NCBI RefSeq assembly: GCF_008041945.1
Contig: NZ_VKAD01000001.1
Location: 1,798,001 to 1,862,000 of the forward strand
Source: Reinekea thalattae
Lineage (GTDB): Bacteria > Pseudomonadota > Gammaproteobacteria > Pseudomonadales > Natronospirillaceae
Reading direction: 5' to 3'
Length of the DNA: 64,000 nt
Positions 10,537-58,131 of the stretch are shown here, in pieces (position 1 is the stretch's first letter; every line of letters begins with the position of its first letter). The notes below the pieces were generated by a model. The model was not told the origin of the DNA. It ran no database searches and was given only the letters and a program-made list of their open reading frames with translations. A program made the translations under genes and the position numbers.

Positions 10537-13500
10537 ATGACGGACACGCCTTCGAGTAACTTTGAATTCTTAAAAGAACACGACCCAATATTCTTTCAAC
10601 TCACACACAATGCAGAAAAAATATTCGCCATCGACCCAAATGCCTGTTTGATGAAACTGCGCCAATTCGGCGAAGCCATTGCACAAGACCTTGCCTCACA
10701 AACCGGTTTAATCAAACAGCAGAGAGAAAGCCAACTTGATCTGCTGAATAGGTTAAGTCACCGGCTCGATATTGATCAGCAAATTCTTTCTCTGTTCCAC
10801 ATTCTGCGCAAAGAAGGCAACACCGCCAACCACGAATTCACCACCACATTTAAACAGGCGATGGATGGTTTAAGGGCAGCGAGAAACGTTGCTATTTGGT
10901 ATCACGAAACATTCAGAAGAACCTCCAACAAATTCAAACCGGGGCCTTTTTTATTGCCTGAAGACCCCAGTGTTCAGTTAAAAAACCTTGAAGACAGTAT
11001 TCAGCAACTTAAAGGTGAGCTGCAAGATAAAGCACAATCATTTGAAAGCAGCGAAGAGCTCAGCGCGCTAATAAATCAACAAAAACAAGAAAACTCAATG
11101 CTTGCTAAAAAGCTTGAAGAAGACGCTCTCGTTTACGAAGAACTGCTGCAAGAGCAGGACGCTGAGCAAGCAAAAACACAAGCAGAATTCGAAGATAAAA
11201 TCGCTCGACTTACCGAAGAAACAGAACGATTAAAAAGAGAAAAACAACAGCTAGCGGCGATTAAAAATAGCACTAAACGCGCCAGTCAAAATCTCCATCT
11301 CTCTGAAAAAGAAACGCGCCAACTTATTGATGAACAACTTACAGCAGCACATTGGCAAGCCGATAGCGAAAGTCTCACCTTCCATAAAGGTCACCGACCA
11401 GAAAAAGGCAAAAACAAAGCCATTGCTGAGTGGCCGGTTTCTGGTGGGCGCGCGGATTATGTTTTATTTGCAGGGCTCACGCCAATCGCGATCGTTGAAG
11501 CGAAGAAAGAAAACAGTAATGTTTCCGGTAAAATCTCACAAGCAGAACGCTACAGCAAAAACCTTAAAATTGTAGAACCCATGCTCAGCGCTTGGCAGTT
11601 GGCAGGCATGACCATCGCCTGGCCGGATGAAGGTGATAGCCACTACAAAGTACCCTTTGTTTATTCCTGTAATGGTCGCCCTTATGTGCCGCAACTGGCA
11701 GAGTACTCTGGTACCTGGTTTCGTGATGTACGTGAATCAGAAAACACTAAGCGAGCACTGGCTAGCTTTCACACGCCAGAAGGCCTGTTAGACTTACTAA
11801 AACGCAGTAAAGAAAGCGCACAACAACAACTGCAAACAGAGCCCTTTGGCTATTTAAAACTGCGCGACTACCAACAAAAAGCCATTACTGCGGTCGAAGA
11901 AACGCTCGCTAAAGATATTCGCAAAGCACTACTGGCGATGGCAACCGGCACCGGCAAGACTCGAACCATCATTGGCTTAATGTACCGGTTTTTGAAAGCT
12001 GAACGCTTTAAGCGTATTTTATTTTTGGTCGACCGTACCGCGCTCGGCCAACAAGCCATTGATGCCTTTAATGAAGCGCCGCTGGAGCAAAATAATACCC
12101 TATCGAAAATATACAACATCGCTGAGTTAGGCGACATGGCAGCCGAAGCAGAAACCCGCGTACAAGTTGCCACGGTACAAGCCATGGTGAAGCGCATCTT
12201 TATGAGCGATAACCCTCCGCCATTGGACCAGTTCGACTGCATCATCATCGACGAGGCTCACCGAGGTTACACGCTCGACCAAGAAATGACCGAAGGTGAA
12301 ATCGCCACTCGCGATGCCAGCCAGTATATTTCTAGCTACCGCCGCGTTTTAGACTATTTCGATGCGGTAAAAATTGCACTCACCGCCACACCCGCTAAAC
12401 ATACCAGCGAGATTTTTGGCAAACCGGTCTACACCTACTCGTACCGTGAAGCTGTGGCCGACGATTGGCTAATCGATCACGAACCACCCATCCGTTACCA
12501 AACGCTGCTCTCCAAAAATGGGATCACCTTTACCAAGGGCGAAGCCGTAGAGTCTATCAATACTCAAACCGGTGAAATACAAAGCGCCGAACTCGACGAC
12601 GAACTGACCTTTGAAGTAGAGGCGTTTAATCGTCAAGTCATTAACGAAAATTTCAACCGTGTTATCTGCCAGCAACTCATAAAAGAGCTCGACCCATTCG
12701 GTGACGAAAAAACCATGATCTTCTGCGCCACCGATCTGCACGCCGATATGGTTAAACGTCTGCTGGATGAAGCTTTTAAAGAGGAGTACAACGGAGATTA
12801 CAATCAAGCCGCCGTGGCAAAAATTACCGGCCAGAGCGATAAAGTAGAACAACTTATCCGCCAGTATAAAAATGAACGCTATCCAAACATCGCCATTACT
12901 GTTGATTTGCTCACTACCGGCATCGACGTACCGCCTATCTGTAATTTGGTGTTTATGCGCCGAGTGAAATCACGAATTTTATACGAGCAAATGATCGGCC
13001 GCGCCACCCGCCGTTGCAACGAAATAGGTAAAACGGTATTCCGCATTTACGACCCAGTGGATATTTACGCCACGCTAGCGGATGTAAACACCATGAAACC
13101 ATTGGTAAAAGACCCCAACATCACGCTGGAACAATTGATCGATGAAATAACGGACCCTGAAAAACTAGAACGAGCGACCAATGCGCCCGGCGATATGCCC
13201 GAGCAAAGCCAGGCCGATGTCGTGCTCAGCCAACTCAGCCAGAAGGTGATGCGGGTTCTGCGCAAAGCCGAGAAAAAATCCGAAAACGATCCTAAGCTCA
13301 AACAAAGGCTGAATGAACTACAAAGCCTTTGGAACGTAGAACCGAAAAACCTTCACAAACACCTAAATGAACTTGGCCCAAAACAAGCAGCGGCTTTCAT
13401 TAACCAACACAACGGCCTGCTAAGCCAACTAGAACAAGTGAATAATCTACTCGGCAATGACCGGCAGCCAATCATCTCCGTACACGATGACGAGATACAC

Positions 13501-26950: not shown

Positions 26951-28546
26951 ATGAAACTATCTAAGCAATTAAGCATATTGGTGATTTTATTCGCTATAGG
27001 ATTGGTCACCCTCAGTATTTTGTCGTTGAACATCATCAAGGAAAATTTAATCGAAGCGAGAAAACACGAAATAAAAAATATTTTAACGCTGACTCGTGAA
27101 CAGATTAATTATTACGTCGAACTTGAAAAGCAAGGACAGATGAGCCGTGAAGAAGCCGAAGCCGAGGTTGTTAAGATGCTATCGACTATTCGTTTTGGTG
27201 AATCCTATATTTGGGCAAACGGCAACGATGCTCGATCTAAAGTCCACCCCAATGCAGATCAGATAGGTAAAGAACAACAGAGTTACCAACCGGCATTAAA
27301 AGCACTCGCCGAAAGCGAGTTTGTGTTTAGTGAAGGGAAATTTCCCAAATCCGGCGCTGAAGGTTTATTCGATAAAATAAACGGCATGACTCTCGTGCCC
27401 GAATGGCAGTGGGTATTTGGCTACGGAATTTATACAGCAGATCTCAACGAAGACTATAAAGATATTGCGCTCTACTTTTTAATGGTCGGTGCCATTATTT
27501 TTATTGCCATTCTTATCTGTTCGTTTTTTGTTTCAGGCCTTATCGTTAGAAATATTTTAAAAACCATTGGCGGAGAACCTCGATACGTAACTGAAATCAC
27601 CAGCCGTATTGCTGAAGGTTATTTAAACGAAGAGATAAAAGGAAAGTTCAATAATCAAAGTTTGATGGCTTACGTACAAACAATGCAGCAGTCACTTAAA
27701 GAAATGGTTAAACGAATTCAACAGGGTGCCGAGCTTTTAAGCTATTCAACAAAAGCACTCGATGGCCAGATGGAATACATTTTAGCCGCGACGCAAAAAT
27801 CAACCGAAGCAGTGCAATCTACCGCTGCGGCCATTCAGGAACTTTCCGTTAGCATTGAAGATATTACAAGTAGCGTAAAGGACACCGAACAAAATTCAGA
27901 AAATTCTTACGAGATGGCTTCTAGCGGCGAAGGCAAGGTGCAATCTTCGGCGCAGGGCATTAGCGATATTTCATCACAAATTAACCGTTCGACAGAAGAG
28001 GTCAACAGCTTACAAAAACGTTCGCAAGAAATTGGCAACATTGTCAATGTGATTTTGGAAATCGCCGACCAAACCAATTTACTCGCATTGAATGCAGCCA
28101 TCGAAGCTGCACGTGCTGGCGAACAGGGTCGTGGCTTTGCTGTGGTTGCCGATGAAGTGCGCACCTTGGCTTCACGCACAGCCTCAGCAACGTCAGAAAT
28201 CACCGAGACCATCAACCTGGTTCAAGCCGACACCGAAAGTGTTGCCGCCACTATGCAGTCGGTATTACCTAAAGTAGAGCACAGTGTGCAGACCTCAAAT
28301 GAAGTAACAGAAATTCTAACTAAGATTCGTAACGCCTCAGATGAAACGCTAAGTAAAATTCGAGAAATTTCTAACTCTTCCAGCGAGCAAACAACGGCGA
28401 TTCAGAATCTTTCAGAGCACGCCGAAGAGATTTCGAATGTTATGCAAGACACTGCAGAAAATATATCTAACTCTAAAAAAAGCACCAACGATCTTCGTAA
28501 TCTTGCTCAAGAACTGCACAACAGCGTTGGCTACTTTAAGCTTTAG
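26951..28546 (+). CDS. Methyl-accepting chemotaxis protein with single Cache domain (copy 1)
   Basis: 531 aa. N-terminal membrane helix (about 8-30), periplasmic sCache_2 domain (about 35-175; motifs [31 protein letters not shown]), second membrane helix (about 178-205), a HAMP-like linker and a cytoplasmic signalling coiled coil whose tip is [35 protein letters not shown]. sCache_2 receptors often sense small organic acids. No C-terminal CheR-binding pentapeptide is visible. A second 531-aa paralogue follows in the same direction. Confidence 0.93.
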
Positions 28547-29266: not shown

Positions 29267-30862
29267 ATGAAACTATCAAAGCAGTTAGGCATACTGGTGA
29301 TTTTATTCGCTATAGGATTAGTCACCTTAAGTATATTGTCGTTAAATATTATTAAAGATAACCTCATTGAGGCACGCAAGCACGAAATCCAAAGCGTCCT
29401 TGCACTTACAAAACAGCAGATCAACCACTATGTCGATCTTGAAAAAAGTGGTGCTTTAACACACGAGCAAGCAGTAGAAGAAGTCATTGAAATGCTTTCA
29501 ACTGTTCGCTTTGGTGATTCCTATATTTGGGCCAATGGCGACGACGCTCGCTCTAAAGTCCATCCAAATCAAAGCCAGCTAGGTAAATACCAAGAAAGCT
29601 ATGCTCCTGCATTAAAAGCTTTAGCGGCCGAAGAGTTTGTATTCAGCGAAGGGGATTTCCCGAAATCCGGTTCTCAAGGTTTATACCCAAAAATCAACGG
29701 CATGACGATGATTCCTGAATGGAAATGGGTATTTGGCTACGGCGTTTATGTCGATGACTTAAACGAAGACTTCAAAAATATTGCCTTCTATTTCCTCATG
29801 GTTGGCGCCATTATTTTGGGGCTAATCGTTGTTGCGTCTTACTTTATTTCGCACATGATCGTACGCAATATTTTGAAAAACATTGGCGGCGAACCTCGTT
29901 ACGTCACCGCTGTGACTAGCCGTATTGCCGAAGGTTACTTGAACGAAGAAATCAAGGGCAACTTCTCAGAACACAGCATGATGGGCTATGTGCAAAAAAT
30001 GCAAAATGCATTAAAAGACATGGTACATAAAATCCAACAGGGTTCAGAGTTATTAAACAACTCGTCACGTGCGCTCAACGAACAGATGGAAAACATCCTT
30101 TCGGCATCTAAAAAATCATCTGAAGCATCGCAATCGACCGCCGCAGCGATCCAAGAACTTTCAGCCAGTATCGAAAGCATTGCTAATAGCGCCAGCGAAA
30201 CTGAAAAGAACTCTGAAGCGTCATTTGAAATGTCCTCACGCGGTGAAAGCATTGTACAAAATTCAGCGCAGAGCATCAGTGAGATTTCATCGCAGATTAA
30301 CTTATCGACCGAAGAGATCAGCACACTGCAAAAACGTTCTGCTGAAATTGGCAACGTCGTAAAAGAAATTTTAGAGATCGCCGACCAAACAAATCTACTA
30401 GCACTAAACGCAGCCATTGAAGCGGCACGGGCTGGTGAACAGGGCCGAGGCTTTGCTGTCGTTGCAGATGAAGTTCGTAAGTTGGCATCACGTACTGCAA
30501 CCGCAACATCGGAAATTACCGATACAATCAACCTGGTTCAATCGGATACCGAAAGTGTGGCAAGTACCATGCAAGCGGTACTGCCAAAAGTTGAGCACAG
30601 CGTTGAAACTTCAAATGAAGTCACTGAAATGCTGACGCACATTCGTACCGCTTCAGATGAAAACCTAAATAAAATTCGTGAGATGACTCACTCTTCGATT
30701 GAGCAAAATAAAGCCACGCAAAGCCTTGCGGAACATGCGGAAGAAATTTCTAGCGTTATGCAAGAAACCGCTGAGGCCATTGCCAACTCGAAGAAAGCAA
30801 CGAACGATCTTAGCGACCTAGCACAAGAGCTACACAACAGCGTAAGTTACTTTAAGCTATAG
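29267..30862 (+). CDS. Methyl-accepting chemotaxis protein with single Cache domain (copy 2)
   Basis: 531 aa, same length and architecture as the receptor 0.7 kb upstream: TM helix, sCache_2 domain ([31 protein letters not shown]), TM helix, linker and signalling tip. The first 30 residues are nearly identical, while the ligand domain and the helices near the second membrane segment differ more. A tandem duplication with divergence of sensing specificity is the simplest reading. A strong terminator follows 50 bp after the stop. Confidence 0.93.
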
Positions 30863-40922: not shown

Positions 40923-41324
40923 CTAACGACTAAGGCTCTGCTCATGAATATATTGGGCATAAAGTAAATCAGCAAAATCAAGTTCGGTGATTTTTTCAAG
41001 AACGAGATCACGCACTGCATCTGCAAGCAGGCTATTGTCTGCCGTTAACTCAAAGTCGTTTAACGATAGATACTCTAAGGCAACAGCGAGTCCGGTACGT
41101 TTATTCGCATCGGGCAAGGAATGAGACACTGCGATGCTTGCTGTGTATTTAGCCGCTATTTCAAATACATCACACAAGCCTGAGTAGGCAATAGCATTAT
41201 CGATCCTACCCAAAGCACCCTGTAATTTATTGAGATCAACTGAGCCTTTCATTCCTGGCTCAGTTTTAAGAATAAATGCATTAATTTCAATTACCCGTTC
41301 AAACGGGAAAAAGATTAAATCCAT
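40923..41324 (-). CDS. doc: Doc-family toxin (death on curing)
   Basis: 133 aa, size and sequence of Doc. The Fic-fold motif is HSLPDANKRTGLAVA (consensus HxFx[D/N]ANKR; the phenylalanine is leucine here). The N-terminus FFPFERVIEINAFILKTEPGMKG and the segment KLQGALGRIDNAIAY are typical. Doc toxins phosphorylate EF-Tu and block translation. Its ATG overlaps the stop of the upstream small gene by one base (TAATG), so toxin translation depends on antitoxin translation. The module is inserted on the minus strand between the phosphonate transport genes and phnF. Confidence 0.9.
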   Translation of the reverse strand: MDLIFFPFERVIEINAFILKTEPGMKGSVDLNKLQGALGRIDNAIAYSGLCDVFEIAAKYTASIAVSHSLPDANKRTGLAVALEYLSLNDFELTADNSLLADAVRDLVLEKITELDFADLLYAQYIHEQSLSR

Positions 41325-48176: not shown

Positions 48177-49316
48177 ATGACCATAACGACATTTACCAAT
48201 GCCAAAATCATAACAGGTGATGAGGTTATCAACGGCACAATACAGTTTGATGATCACGGCATTAGCGACATTCAATCCGGCAACAGCCAAATTCCAGCCG
48301 CGATAGATTGCCAAGGCGATTACATCGCACCAGGTTTAGTAGAATTACACACCGACAACCTAGAACGCCACTTACAACCGCGCCCCAGCGTGCATTACCC
48401 TCACAATGCTGCGGTGATGGCACACGACCGAGAGCTAGCCAGCACTGGTATTACCACCGTTTTCGATGCGTTACGCATTGGCTCGATGACACCCAAAGAA
48501 AGCCAATACCAACGCTACGCACGTGAATGCGCGCACGAAATTTTGCACAACCAAGCGCAAGGTAATTTAAAAATTAGCCACTACTTACACATCCGTTCTG
48601 AGGTGTGCTCGGAAACGCTTTTGGATGAAATTGCCGAATTTAGTACCGAAGATCGCATCGGCATCGTCAGCCTTATGGACCACACGCCGGGCCAACGTCA
48701 GTTCCGCGACATCACACAAATGGAAGCTTACTTGCAAGGCAAATACGGCATGAACCGTGAGCAGATGGACGCCCATTTTGACAGCCTGTATGAACTGCAA
48801 AATCGGCTCGGCAAAACGCACGAACAAGCCACCATAGAATTCGCCCGCGCCATGAACGCAACACTGGCTAGCCACGACGATACCACAACAGAAGACGTGC
48901 TCAGCTCGAAAAAAAATCGAGTCTCACTGGCCGAATTTCCAACCACAGTAGAAGCCGCTGCTGCCTGTAGAGAACACAATATTCCGGTGATGATGGGCGC
49001 GCCCAATTTAGTACGCGGCAGCTCACACTCGGGCAATGTTTCGGCAATGGAATTGGTGCGCATGAACCTGATGGACATTATCAGCTCCGATTACATTCCC
49101 AGCGCCTTACTGTACAGCGCCGTCAAAGTCGGCATGGAACTAAACGACTTACCACAAGGCATCGCTACGGCCACACGGGCACCGGCACTCGCCGCAGGCC
49201 TTACCGACCGAGGCGAGCTTAAACCTGGTTTGCGCGCTGACTTAATCCGCTTTTCATTAGCCGCCGACACGCCGTTATTACAAAGTGTTTGGTGCAAAGG
49301 CCAGCGAGTGTCTTGA
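48177..49316 (+). CDS. phnM: RPnTP hydrolase PhnM
   Basis: 379 aa (E. coli 378) amidohydrolase-fold enzyme that removes pyrophosphate from ribose phosphonate triphosphate. Metal-binding start region DYIAPGLVELHTDNLERHLQPRP, then SLMDHTPGQRQF, ASHDDTT, MGAPNLVRGSSHSGN and SDYIPSALL are all family hallmarks. It starts 29 bp beyond the divergent DUF1045 gene, so it probably has its own promoter or is reached by read-through of phnGHIJKLN. Confidence 0.95.
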   Translation: MTITTFTNAKIITGDEVINGTIQFDDHGISDIQSGNSQIPAAIDCQGDYIAPGLVELHTDNLERHLQPRPSVHYPHNAAVMAHDRELASTGITTVFDALRIGSMTPKESQYQRYARECAHEILHNQAQGNLKISHYLHIRSEVCSETLLDEIAEFSTEDRIGIVSLMDHTPGQRQFRDITQMEAYLQGKYGMNREQMDAHFDSLYELQNRLGKTHEQATIEFARAMNATLASHDDTTTEDVLSSKKNRVSLAEFPTTVEAAAACREHNIPVMMGAPNLVRGSSHSGNVSAMELVRMNLMDIISSDYIPSALLYSAVKVGMELNDLPQGIATATRAPALAAGLTDRGELKPGLRADLIRFSLAADTPLLQSVWCKGQRVS

Positions 49317-49427
49317 GAACCATCTTAATAGAAACGTCTTGATAAACATCTTAATAAAAACGAGCTGAATGCTAAATAAAGTTGACTTGAGTGTTCATCA
49401 AAAAACCACAGAGTGAAAGTTTGCGCT

Positions 49428-50714
49428 ATGAAGTCATTGTTTAGCCAAGTCGCTTATTGCATCGATCGAGCATACTGCTCGGTCGGGTTAGATGTTCATC
49501 AATACGCGCAACGCAAACCTGAACGAGCACAAAAAATTGCCATCTGGCTGTTAGCGATTGGCCAAACGCTGGGTTATGCCGGGCTCTATTATATTTTTTC
49601 TGCTTTGTTGTTTAGCTGGGATGCCTCACTCGGCTGGGGCAAAGAAAAGCTAACTCTGGCGTTCATGGCTGCCGCCTTTGCCGGGGCTGCTGTGTCGCCA
49701 TTTGCCGGACGCATTGTCGACATGGGCGGTAGCCGTTGGTTACTCAGCGGCGGCATGGCGTTAGGCGCGCTGGCACTGATTTTATTAAGCACAACTCAAC
49801 ACTACGCTGGCTTTATTGTCTGCTGGTTATTGCTTGGTGTTTCACACGAGTTGGCGCTTTACGGGCCTTGTTTTGCTTTTGTCACTCGCACCACAGGCTT
49901 ACAGGCCAGTCGCAACATTACCCTCATTACACTGATGGCAGGCTTTGCATCGACACTCGCATTACCTGCCGGTGCCTTTTTAGCTGAAAGTATCGGTTGG
50001 CGCAGCACCTGTTTAGTATTCGCGGCAGTCGTTGCCTTCATCGGCGCACCTGCGCTCTACGCGGGAGCAACGATGATCGAATGCTGCCCGAGTAAAATAG
50101 ATTTACCGGAAGCCAAGAAACAAAATAAACAAGCCTTTGCTTTAATCCGCAAACGGCCTGCTTTCTGGTTGCTTTGTCTCGCCTTTCCACTAATCGGCTT
50201 TACCACCAACCTGTTACTCATTCACATCATTCCTATCCTGATCGAATCTGGCATGGCGTTATCGCAAGCGGTGTTAGTCACGGTATTCTTTGGGCCGATG
50301 CAAGTCGTTGGCCGACTCACCATTATGCTGCTCGCCGGGCGATTAAATTCGCTCGCCCTGACTATTGTTTCTTGTGCAGGTATTTTTATTGCCGTGCTAC
50401 TGCTAAAAACAGTCGGCACAATCGCCTTAGCAGGCTACGCCTTTGCCATTTTATTTGGTGCCTGTAACGGCATTCTGAGTATTTTAAAACCACTGGTCAC
50501 CGCCAATGTACTCGGCAAAACCGCTATTGGGATGGTCACCGGCAGCATGGCCGTACCCTATTTAATTATGGTAGCACTATCACCACAGATCGGCTCTTTT
50601 CTATGGCGAATTGACGGCTACGACTTAGCCCTTAACGTCGCAGCTGGTGTTTCTGCCACCGCTCTGATCACACTCTTAAGTTTGGTGTTTTTGTTGAGAA
50701 GAAGTCGGGATTGA
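49428..50714 (+). CDS. MFS transporter
   Basis: 428 aa from ATG 49428; an in-frame GTG at 49413 is an alternative. Twelve predicted membrane helices, the loop motif GRIVDMGGSRWLL after the second helix, and LGVSHELALYGPCFAFVTR further on. It resembles the oxalate/formate antiporter-like MFS branch. It follows phnM by 111 bp in the same direction; phosphonate or product transport is possible but not shown. Its last 39 bp (LSLVFLLRRSRD and stop) form part of a 79-bp direct repeat whose other copy lies 4.9 kb away. Confidence 0.88.
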   Translation: MKSLFSQVAYCIDRAYCSVGLDVHQYAQRKPERAQKIAIWLLAIGQTLGYAGLYYIFSALLFSWDASLGWGKEKLTLAFMAAAFAGAAVSPFAGRIVDMGGSRWLLSGGMALGALALILLSTTQHYAGFIVCWLLLGVSHELALYGPCFAFVTRTTGLQASRNITLITLMAGFASTLALPAGAFLAESIGWRSTCLVFAAVVAFIGAPALYAGATMIECCPSKIDLPEAKKQNKQAFALIRKRPAFWLLCLAFPLIGFTTNLLLIHIIPILIESGMALSQAVLVTVFFGPMQVVGRLTIMLLAGRLNSLALTIVSCAGIFIAVLLLKTVGTIALAGYAFAILFGACNGILSILKPLVTANVLGKTAIGMVTGSMAVPYLIMVALSPQIGSFLWRIDGYDLALNVAAGVSATALITLLSLVFLLRRSRD

Positions 50715-50754
50715 TAAGGTTTAGTTTAATTAATTCTGCGATGTAACCTCATTT
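50676..50754 (+). repeat. Left 79-bp direct repeat
   Basis: Covers the last 39 bp of the MFS gene and 40 bp beyond. On the minus strand it contains the codons NEVTSQN and stop, a relic of the 3' end of the lipoprotein gene intact at the other repeat. Homology stops abruptly at 50676 and after 50754. Eleven mismatches to the right copy, no gaps. Confidence 0.9.
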
Positions 50755-50855
50755 TTATCTATTCCAATATGTGCAAATAAATTAAATTGGTAGCTAACTC
50801 GACTAACCAACATGCAGCCGAACTCAAAATATCACAATAAGCTCGGCAACGACTT

Positions 50856-51071
50856 TCAATATGGATTCGCTAACATCGAATTTCTTGCCTTAAACCGGTC
50901 ATTAGTCTCAGTTCCGTTTGCAATACTCAGCTTCAACTTGGATCCCTCTTTTATTAACTCGGCTACATTCTTCTCGATATTTAGCTGTTCTTCTATCTTA
51001 CTATACGACAGGTTAGAGTATTCTTTACGATGCTTATCTAAACGGCGCAAATATAATTCATGCAATACCAT
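50856..51071 (-). CDS. Unknown 71-aa protein overlapping the radical SAM gene
   Basis: ATG 51071-51069 lies inside the end of the radical SAM gene (14-bp overlap), suggesting translational coupling; no clear Shine-Dalgarno is visible. The product is hydrophilic and mostly helical, begins MVLHELYLRRLDKHRKEY and ends RNSMLANPY. I recognise no family. A small gene directly after a radical SAM gene could be a peptide substrate or an accessory protein, but there is no leader/core pattern that proves a RiPP precursor. The frame is open further upstream within the enzyme gene. Confidence 0.5.
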   Translation of the reverse strand: MVLHELYLRRLDKHRKEYSNLSYSKIEEQLNIEKNVAELIKEGSKLKLSIANGTETNDRFKARNSMLANPY

Positions 51072-52329
51072 CCATATCGCGATTTGAAAGAGAGAGAGAT
51101 ATATTCCGCATCTCATGGTACTCACGTTCATTAAAGGAACTCGACGATACAACATGTGGAATTAACGAATCATCGATAACCTTCTCAACCAGCAGCCACT
51201 TCTTAGATTCATTCTTTAGCTTTGTTCCCTCTAACAGCATCAGCGGGTATGCCACTACATCCTTCACACATTGATCTTTAAGGAAACGAATGCTCTCATT
51301 AAATGAATCAACTGTTTGCAAAGGCAATCCATAGATTAAGCTGACCAGAAATGGTATTTCATATGTTTTAAGCAATTCAATTTTCTGAGAAATGACTTTC
51401 AAATTATTAGGCCGGTCGATTACCTTAAATTCACTTGGAACAACAGTCTGCAATCCAAATTCAAGACTGACATTAAGCTGTCGACAAAGCTTTAGGAATT
51501 CCTCTGTTATAAACTCAAATCGAACCTGTAGATTCAGCTCTGAGCTCAGACGTATTCCGATGCAGTATTTAAGAATTTCTAAGTGGTTATCTGAGGGATT
51601 ATTGAAGATCGGATCCAGGACATTAATTTTCTTAACATCTTTAGCTTTAAACTGATCCAATTCAGATTTGATCCTTTCCAAATCAAATGAGCGTACAGAG
51701 ACACCTGAAAGATCTCGATGCTGACAAAAATTGCACTTAAAATTGCACCCTCGCTTGGTTTCCCAGTGAACCATCTGTTGACCTTGTTTAAGTGGGATGG
51801 CCGAGTATAGATTACCATTCGCTAAATATGGAGAAGGCAGTATCGCGAAATCTGAGGGGCGATCCTGGTCATGGTAGATTTTTCGGCCTGCTATGTTGGA
51901 GTCAAATATTGCTTCGAGGAGTGTAAACTCAGCATTTCCAACGATATAGGCGTCTCCGGTCGGGTATTTGTCGAAACAAGTACCCCCATGAACTTCATAG
52001 CCACCCAATATGAACTTTCCTTCAAAACCTTGAGTTCGAAATAATTGCATAAGCGGCTCAACTAGGTGGCTTGACCAAACATAGCAGGCCAGAGCAATAT
52101 GACTCAACTGACAAACATCACATTGACCACGGATAAAACTGACGACATCTTTGGGTGTCAATTCTTTAGGCTGACTCATACTGATTGGAATATGGTCAAT
52201 TAAAAATGTACTGCCGAATTCAGGGTGTGCATGGCAAGCAGCAAGCAGGCTACCAGCAGCTAGGCCAGTACCCGATTTTCCTCGTTGAGAGAAATCGAAG
52301 GTTATTAGAAGGACATTCTGCTCAATCAT
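51058..52329 (-). CDS. Radical SAM protein with N-terminal B12-binding-like domain
   Basis: 423 aa from ATG 52329, which has GGAG 8 bases upstream and overlaps the preceding stop as ATGA; an ATG seven codons earlier is less likely. Residues 1-150 look like a cobalamin-binding Rossmann domain (ILGGYEVHGGTCFDKYPTGDAYIVGNAEFTLLEAI). The radical SAM cluster is C195-x3-C199-x2-C202 (RGCNFKCNFC), followed by a typical barrel with SLEFGLQTV and SLIYGLPLQT. Class B enzymes of this kind methylate or rearrange unactivated carbons. There is no SPASM-type cysteine set at the C-terminus. The substrate is unknown. Confidence 0.85.
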   Translation of the reverse strand: MIEQNVLLITFDFSQRGKSGTGLAAGSLLAACHAHPEFGSTFLIDHIPISMSQPKELTPKDVVSFIRGQCDVCQLSHIALACYVWSSHLVEPLMQLFRTQGFEGKFILGGYEVHGGTCFDKYPTGDAYIVGNAEFTLLEAIFDSNIAGRKIYHDQDRPSDFAILPSPYLANGNLYSAIPLKQGQQMVHWETKRGCNFKCNFCQHRDLSGVSVRSFDLERIKSELDQFKAKDVKKINVLDPIFNNPSDNHLEILKYCIGIRLSSELNLQVRFEFITEEFLKLCRQLNVSLEFGLQTVVPSEFKVIDRPNNLKVISQKIELLKTYEIPFLVSLIYGLPLQTVDSFNESIRFLKDQCVKDVVAYPLMLLEGTKLKNESKKWLLVEKVIDDSLIPHVVSSSSFNEREYHEMRNISLSLSNRDMDGIA

Positions 52330-52637
52330 GCTGCATCTCCTTCCAAGCAATAAAGATTAGAGGCAACGAGATCACATACTCTATTCAGGTCCTTTCGCCA
52401 GAGTGCGATAACTATCATCGTTGACTTTTCGACACTGACTTTAATCAGGAGACGTTTTTTTCTAGAAAGCCGGACTAACCGCCAACCTGGTGCTGCTTTC
52501 AACTTTTTATATCGTGTATTTGGTAGTTGCTGACCAAACACTTGGATCTTATGAATCTCACTTGCATCGAAGGATGCCTTTCGATACGACCAGACCTGAC
52601 AAGCAGTGGTACTCTCAATACTCTTAAACTTAAACAT
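52326..52637 (-). CDS. Unknown 103-aa protein coupled to the radical SAM gene
   Basis: ATG at 52637 with GAGAGG six bases upstream; the stop overlaps the radical SAM start as ATGA. The product is basic and beta-rich towards the C-terminus (LKAAPGWRLVRLSRKKRLLIKVSVEKSTMIVIALWRKDLNR), loosely reminiscent of the RelE/ParE fold, but I cannot assign it. It starts MFKFKSIESTTACQVWSYRK. Tight coupling to the enzyme suggests a shared function. Confidence 0.7.
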   Translation of the reverse strand: MFKFKSIESTTACQVWSYRKASFDASEIHKIQVFGQQLPNTRYKKLKAAPGWRLVRLSRKKRLLIKVSVEKSTMIVIALWRKDLNRVCDLVASNLYCLEGDAA

Positions 52638-52794
52638 GTTAGACCTCTCGTTCTGTGTTTGAGTTAGCGCTGATTGGTTATAGCGCAAACAAATACTCAC
52701 AAAACCGATGCCTATTTCTTAGGAAAAGTAGCTGTCACCCCCTAAATTAGAAGGTGTAGCTCGATATGAAGCCTTCAAGGGAAACATCACTTGA
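52638..52794. other. 157-bp gap between the ankyrin and 103-aa genes
   Basis: No ORF. Contains a short inverted repeat GCGCT / AGCGC (52667-52686). It may hold a separate promoter for the three-gene 103-aa / radical SAM / 71-aa unit. Confidence 0.35.
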
Positions 52795-55527
52795 TTAGTC
52801 AGGGGTGGCTTCTTTGACTAATTCTGGGAACCGATCCGTCAGGAGCCAGGTAATTTCTTGAAATTCCTTATAGTCCCCAATTTGTCGGCCATTTTTGGCC
52901 ATAGCTTTTCTATGCTCTTTATGAGTAGACGAGTAAAAAATGGCCCAATCAATTGGTGTACCACCTCTGTCATCTTTCGCAGATACTAGCTCTGGATAGT
53001 TATTAGCTAGATATTCGACCGCTGGGTAATTTCCAGCTCGAACAGCAGTGTGTAATACATTGGCTTCATTCGAAGACAATAATTTAATTACTCGGGGGAA
53101 TTGTTGATGTTTGGTGAGCTGTTCAAAGCAGGTTTGGGATCGACTTGCAACTGACGAGTGAAGCGCAGTACGTCCCTTAAAATCCTGATAGTCCAACTCA
53201 GCCCCAGCTAGAATTAGCTTTGCAACAATTTGATCAAATCCATTGTTAGCTGCAAGCATAAGTGGAGTTTGGCGTTTGAAGTCAGCTTTGTTACTCAAAG
53301 ATGGTATGAGTTCAATGAGCAATTCCATTAGTAAATGGTAGTTTTTTTCTACTACATCAAAAGAGAAGCCTACTAAACTCGCGATTTCTTTCATTCTTGG
53401 CAGATCGGAAGCTATCTTAATTAACAAAACTAATATAGATTCGTTACGACCACCAGAAACAGACTTTACCGCGAGGTCTGAGAAATGCTTGTTGATCCAT
53501 TCACATATTTCCTCACGTGCTAATTGCTTACTAGGCTCCATTACAAAGCGAATCACTTCTTTTGGTAACTCAGAAATAATCTCAGCTTTAGGATAACCTA
53601 TGTAAGGTGTGTAAAGGGTCTTACCGAAGTACTCGAACAACCCTGGCACATAGTTTTCAATGACCGGAGATAGGTCGTTCGAATCTTCAAATACCAATCC
53701 ACCAATAAATCTTGAAAATATAGACTCCAATGAATTCAAGTTAAATGTCTTCATCGGTACGGCTAATTCAAGTGAGAGAAGATCTCTTGCGATTCCTCCT
53801 TGATGTTCGCCAAAACAGTAATTTTCTGATACTTCAAGAGCCTTCCTGAATAACTTCCTGGCACCATCAAAGTCATTCCTATACAACTTATGCTTAGCAG
53901 AAAAATCTAGGTAAAATGGCTCAAAAACGTGTCGCTCGGGGTGCTTTTCGAAATGCTGTAAGAGCTCAGAAACTCTAGCCTCAGTATCCTTTTGATAAAA
54001 ACTAAAACCGTCGTTATTGAGAATGGCAGAAAGCTCCAGTATAAATATCTCTAACTTATTCAGGGATGTCGTTTTTACCTCCTTCATTCGCCGAACTAAT
54101 GCCATCCGATTTCTGTAGCTATCTCGTAGAAAAGCAGTTCGATATAGAACATCAAAATCGTTCACTTTCTTCAAATCTTTACCTCGAATGACATTTGGGC
54201 TAGATACTGAAATTTTTTCAGCTTGCGAAGTTATTGATATATCCCGTTTCTTGAGACTCACCTTTCTCTTCAAGTAGTACATTTGGTCTTGCGGTGAGAT
54301 CGGAAACACATCATTGATGTCATTCGTCCCGATTAGCGATCTGAAAGTAATGTTTAAATGTTCTGCAAGGTGACCTTCAATATCAGAAATAACCTCACTT
54401 TGTACTCCTGAAAATACATCATCCTTCAGGAAAAAAGGCACGGAGTTCGCAAAAATTCGGGTTTCTTTTTCTGGTTCCGTCGTTCGCTTTAACGACTGAA
54501 TAGTCAAATTGAAAGACAGTTCCAGGATCTTTATAAGTTGCAACGTCTTGTTTTTTGCAGGATCTGCCGATTTAAACGTGTAGGAATTACCTGAGATTAA
54601 TTTGCACAGATTCTTATAGCCAGCCTCACAGGCCCTTGCGACCTTTAGCCTTTTTACAACAGTACTAATCGATGGCTGAGAATAGCGATTTATCATCAAA
54701 GCTACAAAGTGCAACATGAGGTCTTCATTCAAGTCAGATGGTGAAGCGTTAAGTAAGTTATCAATAACATCACGATCTAGCGGCACTTCATGTTTTAGGA
54801 GGCCTGGCGTCAGTCCTTTTTTGCTTATAAAACCCCTTGCTACTTCGAATTGAGCAACTGCAGGTAGGCTAGTATCAACACTAAACGTACCGTTAAATGT
54901 AAGCTCAAGATCTGTAAAATACTCGTCTATCTTCGATCTAAACGGTGTGGTTTTGCCATCCTTCCAGTTTCGAAGTGTCTTAACTAGAGACTCTTCGTCC
55001 TTGCCACGCTTTGTCAGCCCCATTTGTTGTGCTGTTTTATCTAGTGAGACGCCCATCAAATCGAGGAACCAGTCAACAACCATTTGCACTGGCATTTTAA
55101 GCTCATGACTCTCTCCGAGCTGCTCGGAGAAAGGTAGAAACCAGAAATATCCTCCTGGCATACCTTTGTCTATAGGTGAATCCGACTGCCAGAAGGCGAG
55201 ATGTCGCCCCAGTTGAGGCATGATCAAACAGCTTGCGATGTGATAAACAACCTGGGCATCAGTGATGCCATAGGTCCATGTTTTTAAACGAATATTGTCA
55301 ATAACGGAGCCCGACGACATCAGGTTTTGCATGATGTCGATAGCTTCGGTTTCTTCTATGGCCAGCTCTTCAAAGATCTCTTGAATCAAGTCGGCTACTT
55401 TCTGCTGGTGTTCCATAAACACACCAGTACGGGCTAACAGTGATTTCTTCTTCTTGGGACTGTATTGCAAACCCAAAGCAGAATGCACGCTGAGTATTAT
55501 TTTTTCAAATGAGGGGAATGAAGCCAT
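52795..55527 (-). CDS. Large ankyrin-repeat protein of unknown function
   Basis: 910 aa, ATG with AGGA 8 bases upstream. Residues 1-150 are unrecognised. At about 151-204 a segment (VDWFLDLMGVSLDKTAQQMG ... LRNWKDGKTTPFRSKIDEYF) looks like a Cro/XRE-type helix-turn-helix. Residues 210-740 are helical and unassigned. The C-terminal region 747-870 holds three to four ankyrin repeats (RQTPLMLAANNGFDQIVAKLI, GRTALHSSVASRS, NVLHTAVRAGNYPAVEYLANN, GTPIDWAIFYSS). No NTPase or nuclease motif was found. It is the first and largest gene of the inserted cluster; it may sense or scaffold (inference). Confidence 0.75.
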   Translation of the reverse strand: MASFPSFEKIILSVHSALGLQYSPKKKKSLLARTGVFMEHQQKVADLIQEIFEELAIEETEAIDIMQNLMSSGSVIDNIRLKTWTYGITDAQVVYHIASCLIMPQLGRHLAFWQSDSPIDKGMPGGYFWFLPFSEQLGESHELKMPVQMVVDWFLDLMGVSLDKTAQQMGLTKRGKDEESLVKTLRNWKDGKTTPFRSKIDEYFTDLELTFNGTFSVDTSLPAVAQFEVARGFISKKGLTPGLLKHEVPLDRDVIDNLLNASPSDLNEDLMLHFVALMINRYSQPSISTVVKRLKVARACEAGYKNLCKLISGNSYTFKSADPAKNKTLQLIKILELSFNLTIQSLKRTTEPEKETRIFANSVPFFLKDDVFSGVQSEVISDIEGHLAEHLNITFRSLIGTNDINDVFPISPQDQMYYLKRKVSLKKRDISITSQAEKISVSSPNVIRGKDLKKVNDFDVLYRTAFLRDSYRNRMALVRRMKEVKTTSLNKLEIFILELSAILNNDGFSFYQKDTEARVSELLQHFEKHPERHVFEPFYLDFSAKHKLYRNDFDGARKLFRKALEVSENYCFGEHQGGIARDLLSLELAVPMKTFNLNSLESIFSRFIGGLVFEDSNDLSPVIENYVPGLFEYFGKTLYTPYIGYPKAEIISELPKEVIRFVMEPSKQLAREEICEWINKHFSDLAVKSVSGGRNESILVLLIKIASDLPRMKEIASLVGFSFDVVEKNYHLLMELLIELIPSLSNKADFKRQTPLMLAANNGFDQIVAKLILAGAELDYQDFKGRTALHSSVASRSQTCFEQLTKHQQFPRVIKLLSSNEANVLHTAVRAGNYPAVEYLANNYPELVSAKDDRGGTPIDWAIFYSSTHKEHRKAMAKNGRQIGDYKEFQEITWLLTDRFPELVKEATPD

Positions 55528-55549
55528 AAGTGATCCTTTTGCTAATTTA

Positions 55550-55577
55550 GAGGCTATTAGCTCATTCCTTGAGGCTA
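55550..55577. promoter_or_regulatory. Direct repeat GAGGCTA x2 upstream of the ankyrin gene
   Basis: GAGGCTA at 55550-55556 and 55571-55577, 21 bp apart (two helical turns), 23-50 bp before the ankyrin ATG (minus strand). Possible operator, perhaps for the HTH-like region of the ankyrin protein. Confidence 0.35.
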
Positions 55578-55617
55578 AATATCAGAGAAAAGTTGGTGCC
55601 ACCTCTTATTTTTAAAA

Positions 55618-55696
55618 TTAAGTTTGGCGTTTTTGTTGAGAAGATATCGGGGTTGATAAGATTTAGTTTAACTAATTTTGAGATGCAGACTCATTT
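55618..55696 (+). repeat. Right 79-bp direct repeat
   Basis: In the frame of the MFS gene it reads LSLAFLLRRYRG and stop, a tail without the rest of the gene. On the minus strand it encodes the end of the intact 119-aa lipoprotein gene (NESASQN and stop). 68 of 79 positions equal the left copy, without gaps. Confidence 0.9.
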
Positions 55697-56031
55697 AAGC
55701 TGCGAAGCGTTTTATCTGTCTGTAAAAGAGCTTTTGCTTTAAATGCGGCTTCCGTTTCTGGGTACTTATCAACAACGTAATTGAGCACACCTAAGGCATA
55801 AGCTGACTCTCCTAACTTCATATAATTATCAGCTTTTAACAACATTAAATTGGCAGTATCTTCATCGGAGTAATTATATTTAATTAAAGAATACTCAATT
55901 TTCCGTAATGACTCCTCATAGTTTCCTTCGTCATTGGCATTATAAGAATTGCTTGCAGAAGCCGGGGCTAAAGAGCACCCAGACATTATTAAAATTACTG
56001 CAGCCAATAATGCGATAGTATATTTATTCAT
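55672..56031 (-). CDS. Small TPR-like lipoprotein
   Basis: 119 aa with a signal peptide and lipobox (ILIMSGC). The mature part contains a helical repeat region similar to tetratricopeptide/tol-pal-type repeats (NYEESLRKIEYSL, NLMLLKADNYMKLGESAYALGVLNYVVDKYPETEAAFKAKALLQ). It is probably an outer-membrane-anchored periplasmic protein; function unknown. Its last 25 bp lie in the right 79-bp repeat, so its original neighbour was probably the MFS gene, convergent with it. Confidence 0.75.
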   Translation of the reverse strand: MNKYTIALLAAVILIMSGCSLAPASASNSYNANDEGNYEESLRKIEYSLIKYNYSDEDTANLMLLKADNYMKLGESAYALGVLNYVVDKYPETEAAFKAKALLQTDKTLRSLNESASQN

Positions 56032-56298
56032 AATTTCCTCTTTAGAAACGCCATAATCACCGACTAAAAGTGAGCAATGATTTATAGTCTGGTAATAACT
56101 AAACCTATTCTTTGTTAACGCTGTGTTAACCTGACTCCACCGTCAAGCTACACTATTTTTAATTAAGTTTCTAGAAAGCTAGCAGGCTTACGACGACGGC
56201 CTCAATTATCTTTTCATAATAAATTACCGCTACCGATTCTTAATCGGTAGCGGAAAACTAGCTTTAGCTATTTATTTAGCCCTGTCACTTAATCTTAC
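56032..56298. other. Intergenic region between the lipoprotein gene and glmS
   Basis: 267 bp without an ORF. ACCGCTACCGATTC / AATCGGTAGCGG (56225-56251) forms a strong hairpin (arms CCGCTACCGATT / AATCGGTAGCGG, 3-bp centre) that is a likely transcript end for glmS on the minus strand. Confidence 0.55.
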
Positions 56299-58131
56299 TT
56301 ACTCAACCGTAACAGCTTTTGCGAGGTTACGAGGCTGGTCGACGTCGGTGCCTTTAATCAGCGCGACGTGGTAAGCCAACAGTTGCATCGGCACGGTGTA
56401 GAAAATCGGTGCGGTGATTTCGTTAACGTGCGGCATGGAAATAATTTTCATATTTTCAGAGGCTTCGAAGCCTGCTTTTTCGTCGGCGAAGACATACAGT
56501 TGACCGCCGCGTGCGCGCACTTCTTCGACATTAGATTTTAGTTTTTCTAACAGGTCGTTGTTTGGTGCAATAACGACGACTGGCATTTCTGCGTCGATCA
56601 AGGCAAGCGGGCCGTGCTTTAATTCTCCGGCGGCATACGCTTCGGCGTGAATGTATGAAATTTCTTTCAGTTTTAGCGCCGCTTCCATGGCGATTGGGTA
56701 GTATTCGCCACGACCTAAAAACAGCGTGTGGTGTTTGTCGGCAAAGTCTTCGGCCAGTGTTTCAATTTCGTTGTCGTACGCGAGGGCACTTTCAATGTGT
56801 ACTGGCAGTGCGTGTAACTCTTTAACGATTTCTGCTTCACGTTTGGCGTCGATACGGCCTTGGTGTTTACCGATTGCGGTAACCAGCATCAGCATGGCCG
56901 CCAATTGAGTAGTAAAGGCTTTGGTAGAAGCCACGCCAATTTCGGTGCCGGCGCGGGTCATAAAGGCGATGTCCGATTCGCGCACCAAAGAAGAACCGGA
57001 TACGTTACAGATAGTCATTACTGCCATGTAACCTTTCTCTTTTGCGATGCGCAGTGCGGCTAAGGTGTCGGCAGTTTCACCCGACTGTGACAGCGTAATC
57101 AGTAAGCTGTTTGGGCGCGTAACAAATTCGCGGTAGCGGAATTCGGAAGCGATTTCGACATCGCAACTGACGCCAGCAATCGATTCAAACCAGTAACGTG
57201 CTGCCATGCCAGAATTATAAGAAGTACCGCAAGCAATAATTTGTACGTGCTCAACCTTGGTTAAAATTTCGACCGCGTTAACGCCAATGCTTTCGGTAAT
57301 GACTGAGTCTTTTGTGACTCGACCTTCGATAACATTCTTCATTGACTCTGGCTGTTCAAAAATTTCTTTTTGCATAAAGTGACGATACTGGCCTTTGGTG
57401 CCTGCGTCTTGCTCAGCGGTTGACTCAACTACTTCACGCTCAACGGGCTTACCGTTTACGTCGATCACTTTAACATCGCGACGGGTAATTTCGGCAACGT
57501 CACCTTCTTCTAAATAACTAAAGCGACGAGTAACAGAAAGCAGCGCTAGTTGGTCGGACGCTAAAAAGTTTTCACCCACGCCGTAACCAATCACTATCGG
57601 GCTACCTGAACGGGCAACAACAATTCGCTCAGGGTCGTTGCGATCTAAAATTACCGTGCCGTATGCGCCTTCTAATTGCGCGGCAGTTTTGTGCAGTGCT
57701 TCGATAAGCGTTTCTGACGTTCGGTATTCCCACTCAACCAAATGCGCGATAACTTCAGTATCGGTTTCTGAGCTGAACACATAACCACGCTCTTTTAATA
57801 TTTCGCGCAAGCTTTCGTAGTTTTCGATAATGCCGTTATGCACGACAGAAATATCGCCAGAAATATGTGGGTGAGCGTTTGCCTCAGAAGGTTCACCATG
57901 CGTAGCCCAACGAGTGTGCGCAATACCAGTGCCGCCAGTGACGCCTTGCTGCTCAACGGCGTCGGCCAATTCTTGCACCTTGCCTAAGCGGCGCACACGA
58001 GTCAGATTTTTTTCGCTGTCGACCACGGCAACACCAGCAGAGTCGTAACCGCGATATTCTAAACGGCGTAAACCTTCGACTAAAATTTCGGCGACATCAC
58101 GTTGAGCTACGGCTCCAACTATTCCACACAT
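56299..58131 (-). CDS. glmS: Glutamine-fructose-6-phosphate aminotransferase
   Basis: 610 aa, full length. The N-terminal Ntn glutaminase domain begins MCGIVGAV with the catalytic cysteine after Met; [18 protein letters not shown] and the [10 protein letters not shown]-type region ([12 protein letters not shown]) bind glutamine. Two SIS sugar-isomerase domains follow ([31 protein letters not shown]), and the C-terminus [15 protein letters not shown] is typical. It makes glucosamine-6-phosphate, the first step to UDP-GlcNAc. The DeoR regulator gene lies 90 bp upstream on the same strand, and glmU further up. Confidence 0.98.

Follow-up and report, generated by a model that had tools for sequence, protein, structure and literature searches.

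We examined a 64,000-nucleotide stretch of DNA from Reinekea thalattae (the window, whose numbering is used throughout unless a locus handle such as L042 precedes the coordinates). In it, two convergent genes, coding for an MFS transporter and a small lipoprotein, are separated by a cargo of a few genes that is bounded by a pair of direct repeats. The features of this region are as follows:

49413..50714, plus strand, MFS transporter gene, ArsK-like, forming the left flank
50676..50754, no strand assigned, 79-nt direct repeat, left copy, with the MFS gene end and a copy of the lipoprotein tail that closes in a stop codon
50755..55617, minus strand, cargo interior, 4,863 bp, GC 0.407
50856..51074, minus strand, small 72-codon ORF with no homology support
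51058..52329, minus strand, 423-aa radical-SAM protein (430 aa from a TTG start at 52350) of family PDC-M51A, with a CxxxCxxC motif
52326..52640, minus strand, 104-aa protein (124 aa from a GTG start at 52700) of no known family
52795..55527, minus strand, 910-aa protein with helical repeats and C-terminal ankyrin repeats, PADLOC "Ankyrin" family PDLC02908
55618..55696, no strand assigned, right copy of the 79-nt direct repeat, holding a stop-terminated copy of the MFS tail and the lipoprotein gene end
55672..56031, minus strand, small lipoprotein gene with a weak TPR match, forming the right flank
56299..58131, minus strand, glmS

The two repeats are duplicated gene ends. The coordinates and alignment given for them in the preliminary description (50676-50754 and 55618-55696, 79 nt, ungapped, 68/79 identical) proved exact, as did its claim that the two genes converge, with the MFS ORF closing in the left copy and the lipoprotein ORF in the right one. 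In the left copy, the MFS ORF terminates with LSLVFLLRRSRD and a stop codon, and the retained lipoprotein tail reads NEVTSQN before its own stop; in the right copy, the retained MFS tail is LSLAFLLRRYRG, again stop-terminated, and the lipoprotein ORF terminates with NESASQN and a stop. Compared across the copies, the stop-terminated tails thus read RRYRG versus RRSRD (MFS) and NEVTSQN versus NESASQN (lipoprotein). Mismatches at repeat positions 11, 28, 29, 35, 44, 55, 61, 64, 69, 71, and 72 leave perfect blocks of 10, 16, 5, 8, 10, 5, 2, 4, 1, and 7 nt, the longest being 16 nt, and the edges are sharp, with identities immediately beyond the two ends (11/40 and 6/40) at background level. Self-BLAST of the 64-kb window for direct repeats (at least 40 nt, at least 75% identity, copies more than 300 bp apart) returned the 79-nt pair as the sole one of its size (E = 6e-18). 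The similarity is far above chance, and a fortuitous match or an ordinary repeated intergenic element is exceedingly improbable: the top 79-mer from 200 mononucleotide shuffles of two 300-bp ends reached 41/79 against the real 68/79, BLAST of the organism's own genome with the repeat found the two copies and no other, unrelated one, and the tails of the same two genes are in frame in both. An integron gene cassette with attC-type repeats was rejected on by-eye comparison, as the GCCTAAC...GTTAG ends present in locus L045 are missing from the 79-bp repeat, which sits in coding ends. There is no tRNA at the repeat-bounded site, and Rfam yielded zero RNA families in 49000-57000. A separate tandem repeat, two copies (88%) of a 26-bp unit, runs across the end of a phnM-like gene at 49310-49361.

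All ORFs of the interior lie on the minus strand: three are clear, coding for 910, 104-124, and 423-430 aa, and a fourth, of 72 aa, is small. The radical-SAM gene is overlapped at its start by the 104-aa ORF and at its end by the 72-aa ORF, and this common strand with overlapping ends suggests that the cargo genes form an operon. The 910-aa protein matches PDLC02908 over residues 1-893 (E = 7e-157); a fold search with it returned chiefly ankyrin and DARPin structures, and its N-terminal part was modeled with low confidence. The best match of the radical-SAM protein is PDC-M51A (E = 8e-138), where PDC denotes "phage defence candidate" (PMC11514479), and its nearest solved relatives are biosynthetic methyltransferases (e.g., TokK and CysS). 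Two known systems were considered and rejected as complete descriptions of the cargo. The PADLOC Ankyrin protein that it encodes is an accessory and not a defining part of viperin (pVip) systems, and a viperin gene is lacking, the pVip model matching the radical-SAM protein, whose best match is PDC-M51A, at only E = 0.046. A full PDC-M51 system would pair PDC-M51A, which is present, with the kinase PDC-M51B, which was not found in the cargo; family scans recovered no kinase family match among its proteins. The same kind of scan gave no convincing family match for the two small proteins (104 and 72 aa). Assignment of the 104-aa protein to RelE/ParE was not used, its fold being of low confidence and RelE/ParE structures appearing among insignificant matches alone, and the possibility that the radical-SAM gene ends in a frameshift was rejected because the protein is complete relative to its homologs. 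The family scans bore out the earlier statement that the cargo has no recombinase, with zero recombinase-family matches from any cargo protein and no integrase or transfer genes inside. In composition, the cargo (GC 0.41, GC3 0.38-0.40) lies below the measured MFS, phn, and glmS/glmU genes (GC 0.49-0.51, GC3 0.48-0.56); since the lipoprotein gene is likewise AT-rich (GC3 0.31), composition fails to separate the cargo from the whole flank.

The MFS/lipoprotein pair is absent from the 6 other genus members and 15 other family members searched, and neither this pair nor the cargo was found in the other genus genomes. Searches for an empty site found nothing close; they compared relatives and viral contigs with both flank proteins (lipoprotein and MFS), plasmids with the MFS protein, and the genus with the left-flank DNA. 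The ORFs downstream of glmS vary between the window and six other genomes of the genus (G004 and G006 being alike), and in genus member G005 a TnsABCD-type gene set lies directly downstream of glmS (L063:3234-9355). Compared with its counterpart in genus member G002, GlmS shows 92% identity (56299-58131 versus L062:6040-7872) but GlmU just 73%, which suggests that glmS was exchanged between lineages. Elsewhere in the window, a Fic/Doc-type gene (40923-41324; Pfam Fic, E = 2e-6) adjoins the phosphonate gene cluster, and two closely similar chemotaxis-receptor-like genes of 531 aa are adjacent to each other (26951-28546 and 29267-30862).

The relatives of the two main cargo genes are sparse. Besides the organism's own genome, the Ankyrin family was found in 1 of 392 genomes of the order and 2 of 399 of the phylum, the order match being one of the two, and PDC-M51A in 2 of 369 genomes of the class and 2 of 343 of the order. 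A pattern scan with the Ankyrin alignment, covering one genome per species, recovered nine loci; a genome-contig scan with the single ankyrin protein recovered no loci, and there were no matches to the protein in phages or, with either the single protein or alignment A1, in viral contigs. In four loci, three of them named Vibrio records, the ankyrin gene adjoins a viperin gene, called by viperin-model scan in L042 and by 75-93% identity to the L042 viperin in L048, L050, and L052. A VakA kinase is also present in L042 and L050, and a small zinc-ribbon protein in L048 and L052. The islet is like these viperin loci in having the same ankyrin-protein family (27-29% identity) beside a radical-SAM enzyme; it is unlike them in that the enzyme is PDC-M51A, there is no kinase, and its genes run in one direction and are not divergent. 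Ankyrin relatives in Acinetobacter occur without viperin, including on plasmids where they adjoin IS1006, and those of Marinomonas lie beside TnsD/TnsE-type genes (L043 by scan, L049 by similarity). Tn7-like islands, represented by these genes and by the set next to glmS in G005, are a point of comparison from which the islet departs in that its cargo has no Tns genes and its repeats are of 79 bp and not the 5-bp target duplication of Tn7. A Tn7-like or IS composite element was rejected, since the ORFs of the cargo and its flanks include no transposase or IS gene that would mark the borders.

Among the PDC-M51A relatives, two come with further genes of the PDC-M51 type. In L073, a homolog 51% identical to the cargo enzyme is directly preceded by a ParE-like toxin-domain gene (L073:3035-3337) and followed by a kinase matching both PDC-M51B and VakA, and in L072 a relative is preceded by a zinc-ribbon protein and followed by a PDC-M51B/VakA-like kinase. 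The islet resembles both in its PDC-M51A enzyme and in the small gene directly before it, and differs in that the kinase PDC-M51B is missing and an ankyrin protein is present instead. The zinc-ribbon-like protein (117-118 aa; L072:8835-9191, L048:6566-6919, and L052:6571-6924) of L072 is 41-45% identical to those beside viperin in L048 and L052 (E about 1e-31), and no PADLOC model matched it in the two copies scanned. Judged from the neighborhoods of L042, L048, L050, L052, L072, and L073, a kinase, a zinc-ribbon protein, and (in the window) an ankyrin protein are common to viperin and PDC-M51A loci. Toxin genes of the RelE and HicA types are reported to neighbor viperins (PMC10865869), and the RelE/ParE parallel between the two kinds of loci is looser. 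No viperin-type accessory gene is near the relatives in L044 and L045, of which the former lies among non-defence genes and the latter is split into two ORFs. L045:8440-13430 is an integron-like array with an attC-type repeat after every gene, one of whose cassettes carries this split relative. The PDC-M51 locus of L072 is bracketed by 155-164-bp repeats (79% alike; L072:4383-4537 and 13261-13424), the ends of which resemble inverted repeats (GAATAACTC), making them MITE-like. No direct repeats comparable to the 79-nt pair were found around the Ankyrin or PDC-M51A relatives, the exceptions being the integron-type repeats of L045, the inverted-ended ones of L072, and a weak 44-bp pair in L046. 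By its family matches, the islet joins two known defence-candidate families whose genes occur together in no other locus examined.

As an explanation of the whole, we hold it somewhat better than an even bet that a horizontally acquired islet of three to four genes was inserted as a unit at the MFS/lipoprotein junction and acts as an anti-phage module; we infer the insertion, its direction, and the function alike. The incoming DNA would have borne its own, already diverged copy of the junction, so that recombination there would leave one copy on each side with both genes intact. Since the cargo has no recognizable recombinase, the exchange would have to proceed via a lost or helper site-specific recombinase or via host recombination. 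Foreign insertion at the convergent junction, as proposed in the preliminary description, holds up as the best reading because of the duplicated ends, the lower GC and GC3 of the cargo relative to most flanking genes, the mobile contexts of relatives of the two main cargo genes (Tn7-like genes, IS1006-bearing plasmids, and an integron array), and the failure to find the gene pair or the cargo in the rest of the genus; it falls short of proof, being drawn from one genome, as neither an empty site nor a second occupied one was found, nor any close relative that has the gene pair. With the longest perfect block between the repeats at 16 nt, the islet is probably immobile now or moves rarely, and the repeats may simply be an old scar.

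The further suggestion that the transfer route would be new or helper-dependent goes too far, since islets without recombinases that are flanked by imperfect direct repeats have precedents in the H47 microcin genomic island (PMC5426353) and in cis-mobilizable elements (CIMEs; PMC5704250), and the route is not new in kind. The H47 island of Escherichia coli has a 13-kb microcin cargo, no recombinase gene, and attL and attR sequences of 148 and 144 bp with 77% identity and a longest perfect block of 20 bp; its RecA-independent excision was detected by PCR and empty sites occur in natural strains, though the authors of the study did not succeed in isolating a clone with the island excised (PMC5426353). 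Our islet is similarly a small island with imperfect direct repeats, short perfect blocks, and no recombinase; its repeats are shorter (79 bp, 86%), its cargo is a defence candidate, and excision and empty sites are known for H47 alone. CIMEs are by definition decayed from an ICE or IME (PMC5704250), and the islet is like them in retaining attL/attR-like repeats with integration and transfer genes absent, unlike them in that no parent element or integrase was identified for it. With both kinds of element it shares flanking direct repeats derived from a target gene end and an interior devoid of integrase and transfer genes.

We regard a lost or helper integrase and homologous or homology-assisted exchange as about equally probable routes, with local duplication followed by capture as a third. 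Integrases typically target the 3' ends of genes, where direct repeats mark the site and the genes stay complete. The islet has just this arrangement, and at least two further proteins of integrase type are encoded in the genome, so a decayed or helper-dependent site-specific element of the CIME type, with the repeats as attL and attR of a tyrosine integrase targeting the MFS or lipoprotein gene end and the integrase lost or acting in trans, is possible, if on balance unlikely; the cargo retains no integrase remnant, the two genomic integrases were not linked to the repeat site, and a 79-nt similarity across two gene ends resembles a segment captured from the chromosome of a relative more than the core of an integrase. 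The 14% divergence of the copies, which fits a junction from a related lineage, suits the equally tentative alternative that circular or linear DNA of a related strain, carrying the cargo beside a copy of the junction, was exchanged by RecA or RecA-independently and that a dedicated recombinase was never involved. The H47 island, with similar imperfect repeats and excision independent of RecA as detected by PCR (PMC5426353), is a parallel for such an event; however, a 79-nt stretch whose perfect blocks do not exceed 16 nt offers RecA little homology, and such a route does not explain how the cargo came to lie between ends of this kind in the donor in the first place. Most doubtful of the three is a local duplication of the junction, after which illegitimate recombination would have captured the cargo between the two copies; on this view the islet was at no time mobile as a unit. 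It would account for two junction copies without a recombinase, and these could have diverged in place, but it requires two independent events, the second of which must place the cargo exactly between the repeats, each of which lies only about 90-100 bp from the nearest cargo ORF.

As to function, gene association points to the cargo as a candidate anti-phage module with PDC-M51A in viperin's place. The best-supported guess would be an antiviral PDC-M51A enzyme with the ankyrin protein as its sensor or regulator: the product of the enzyme may be a modified small molecule, which the analogy with viperin would make a chain-terminating nucleotide, and the protein with ankyrin and helical repeats may sense infection or regulate the enzyme. 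The association covers a small number of loci, most of them reached by following these same genes and with no control count, so that the antiviral function is to be taken as a lead. It is rather unlikely, but a contender, that the cargo is not defensive at all and that the radical-SAM enzyme acts in the synthesis or modification of a metabolite, with the ankyrin protein regulating that enzyme. The nearest solved structures are those of biosynthetic methyltransferases (TokK and CysS), the L044 relative lies amid non-defence genes, and the PADLOC candidate models are themselves predictions; against this stand the accessory genes held in common with viperin loci and the mobile contexts. An extension of the antiviral reading, improbable as we rate it, would make viperin and PDC-M51A interchangeable cores of one modular antiviral chassis, comprising an ankyrin protein, a nucleotide kinase, a zinc-ribbon protein, and a RelE/ParE-like toxin, of which one module would travel here as a recombinase-free islet carrying its own copy of the target junction.

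In its repeat anatomy, the islet is one more case of a recombinase-less islet of the sort whose movement is still unexplained (PMC5426353). If PDC-M51A truly shares the helper genes of viperin, it would, within the literature covered, constitute a second concrete candidate for an antiviral enzyme of the radical-SAM type.
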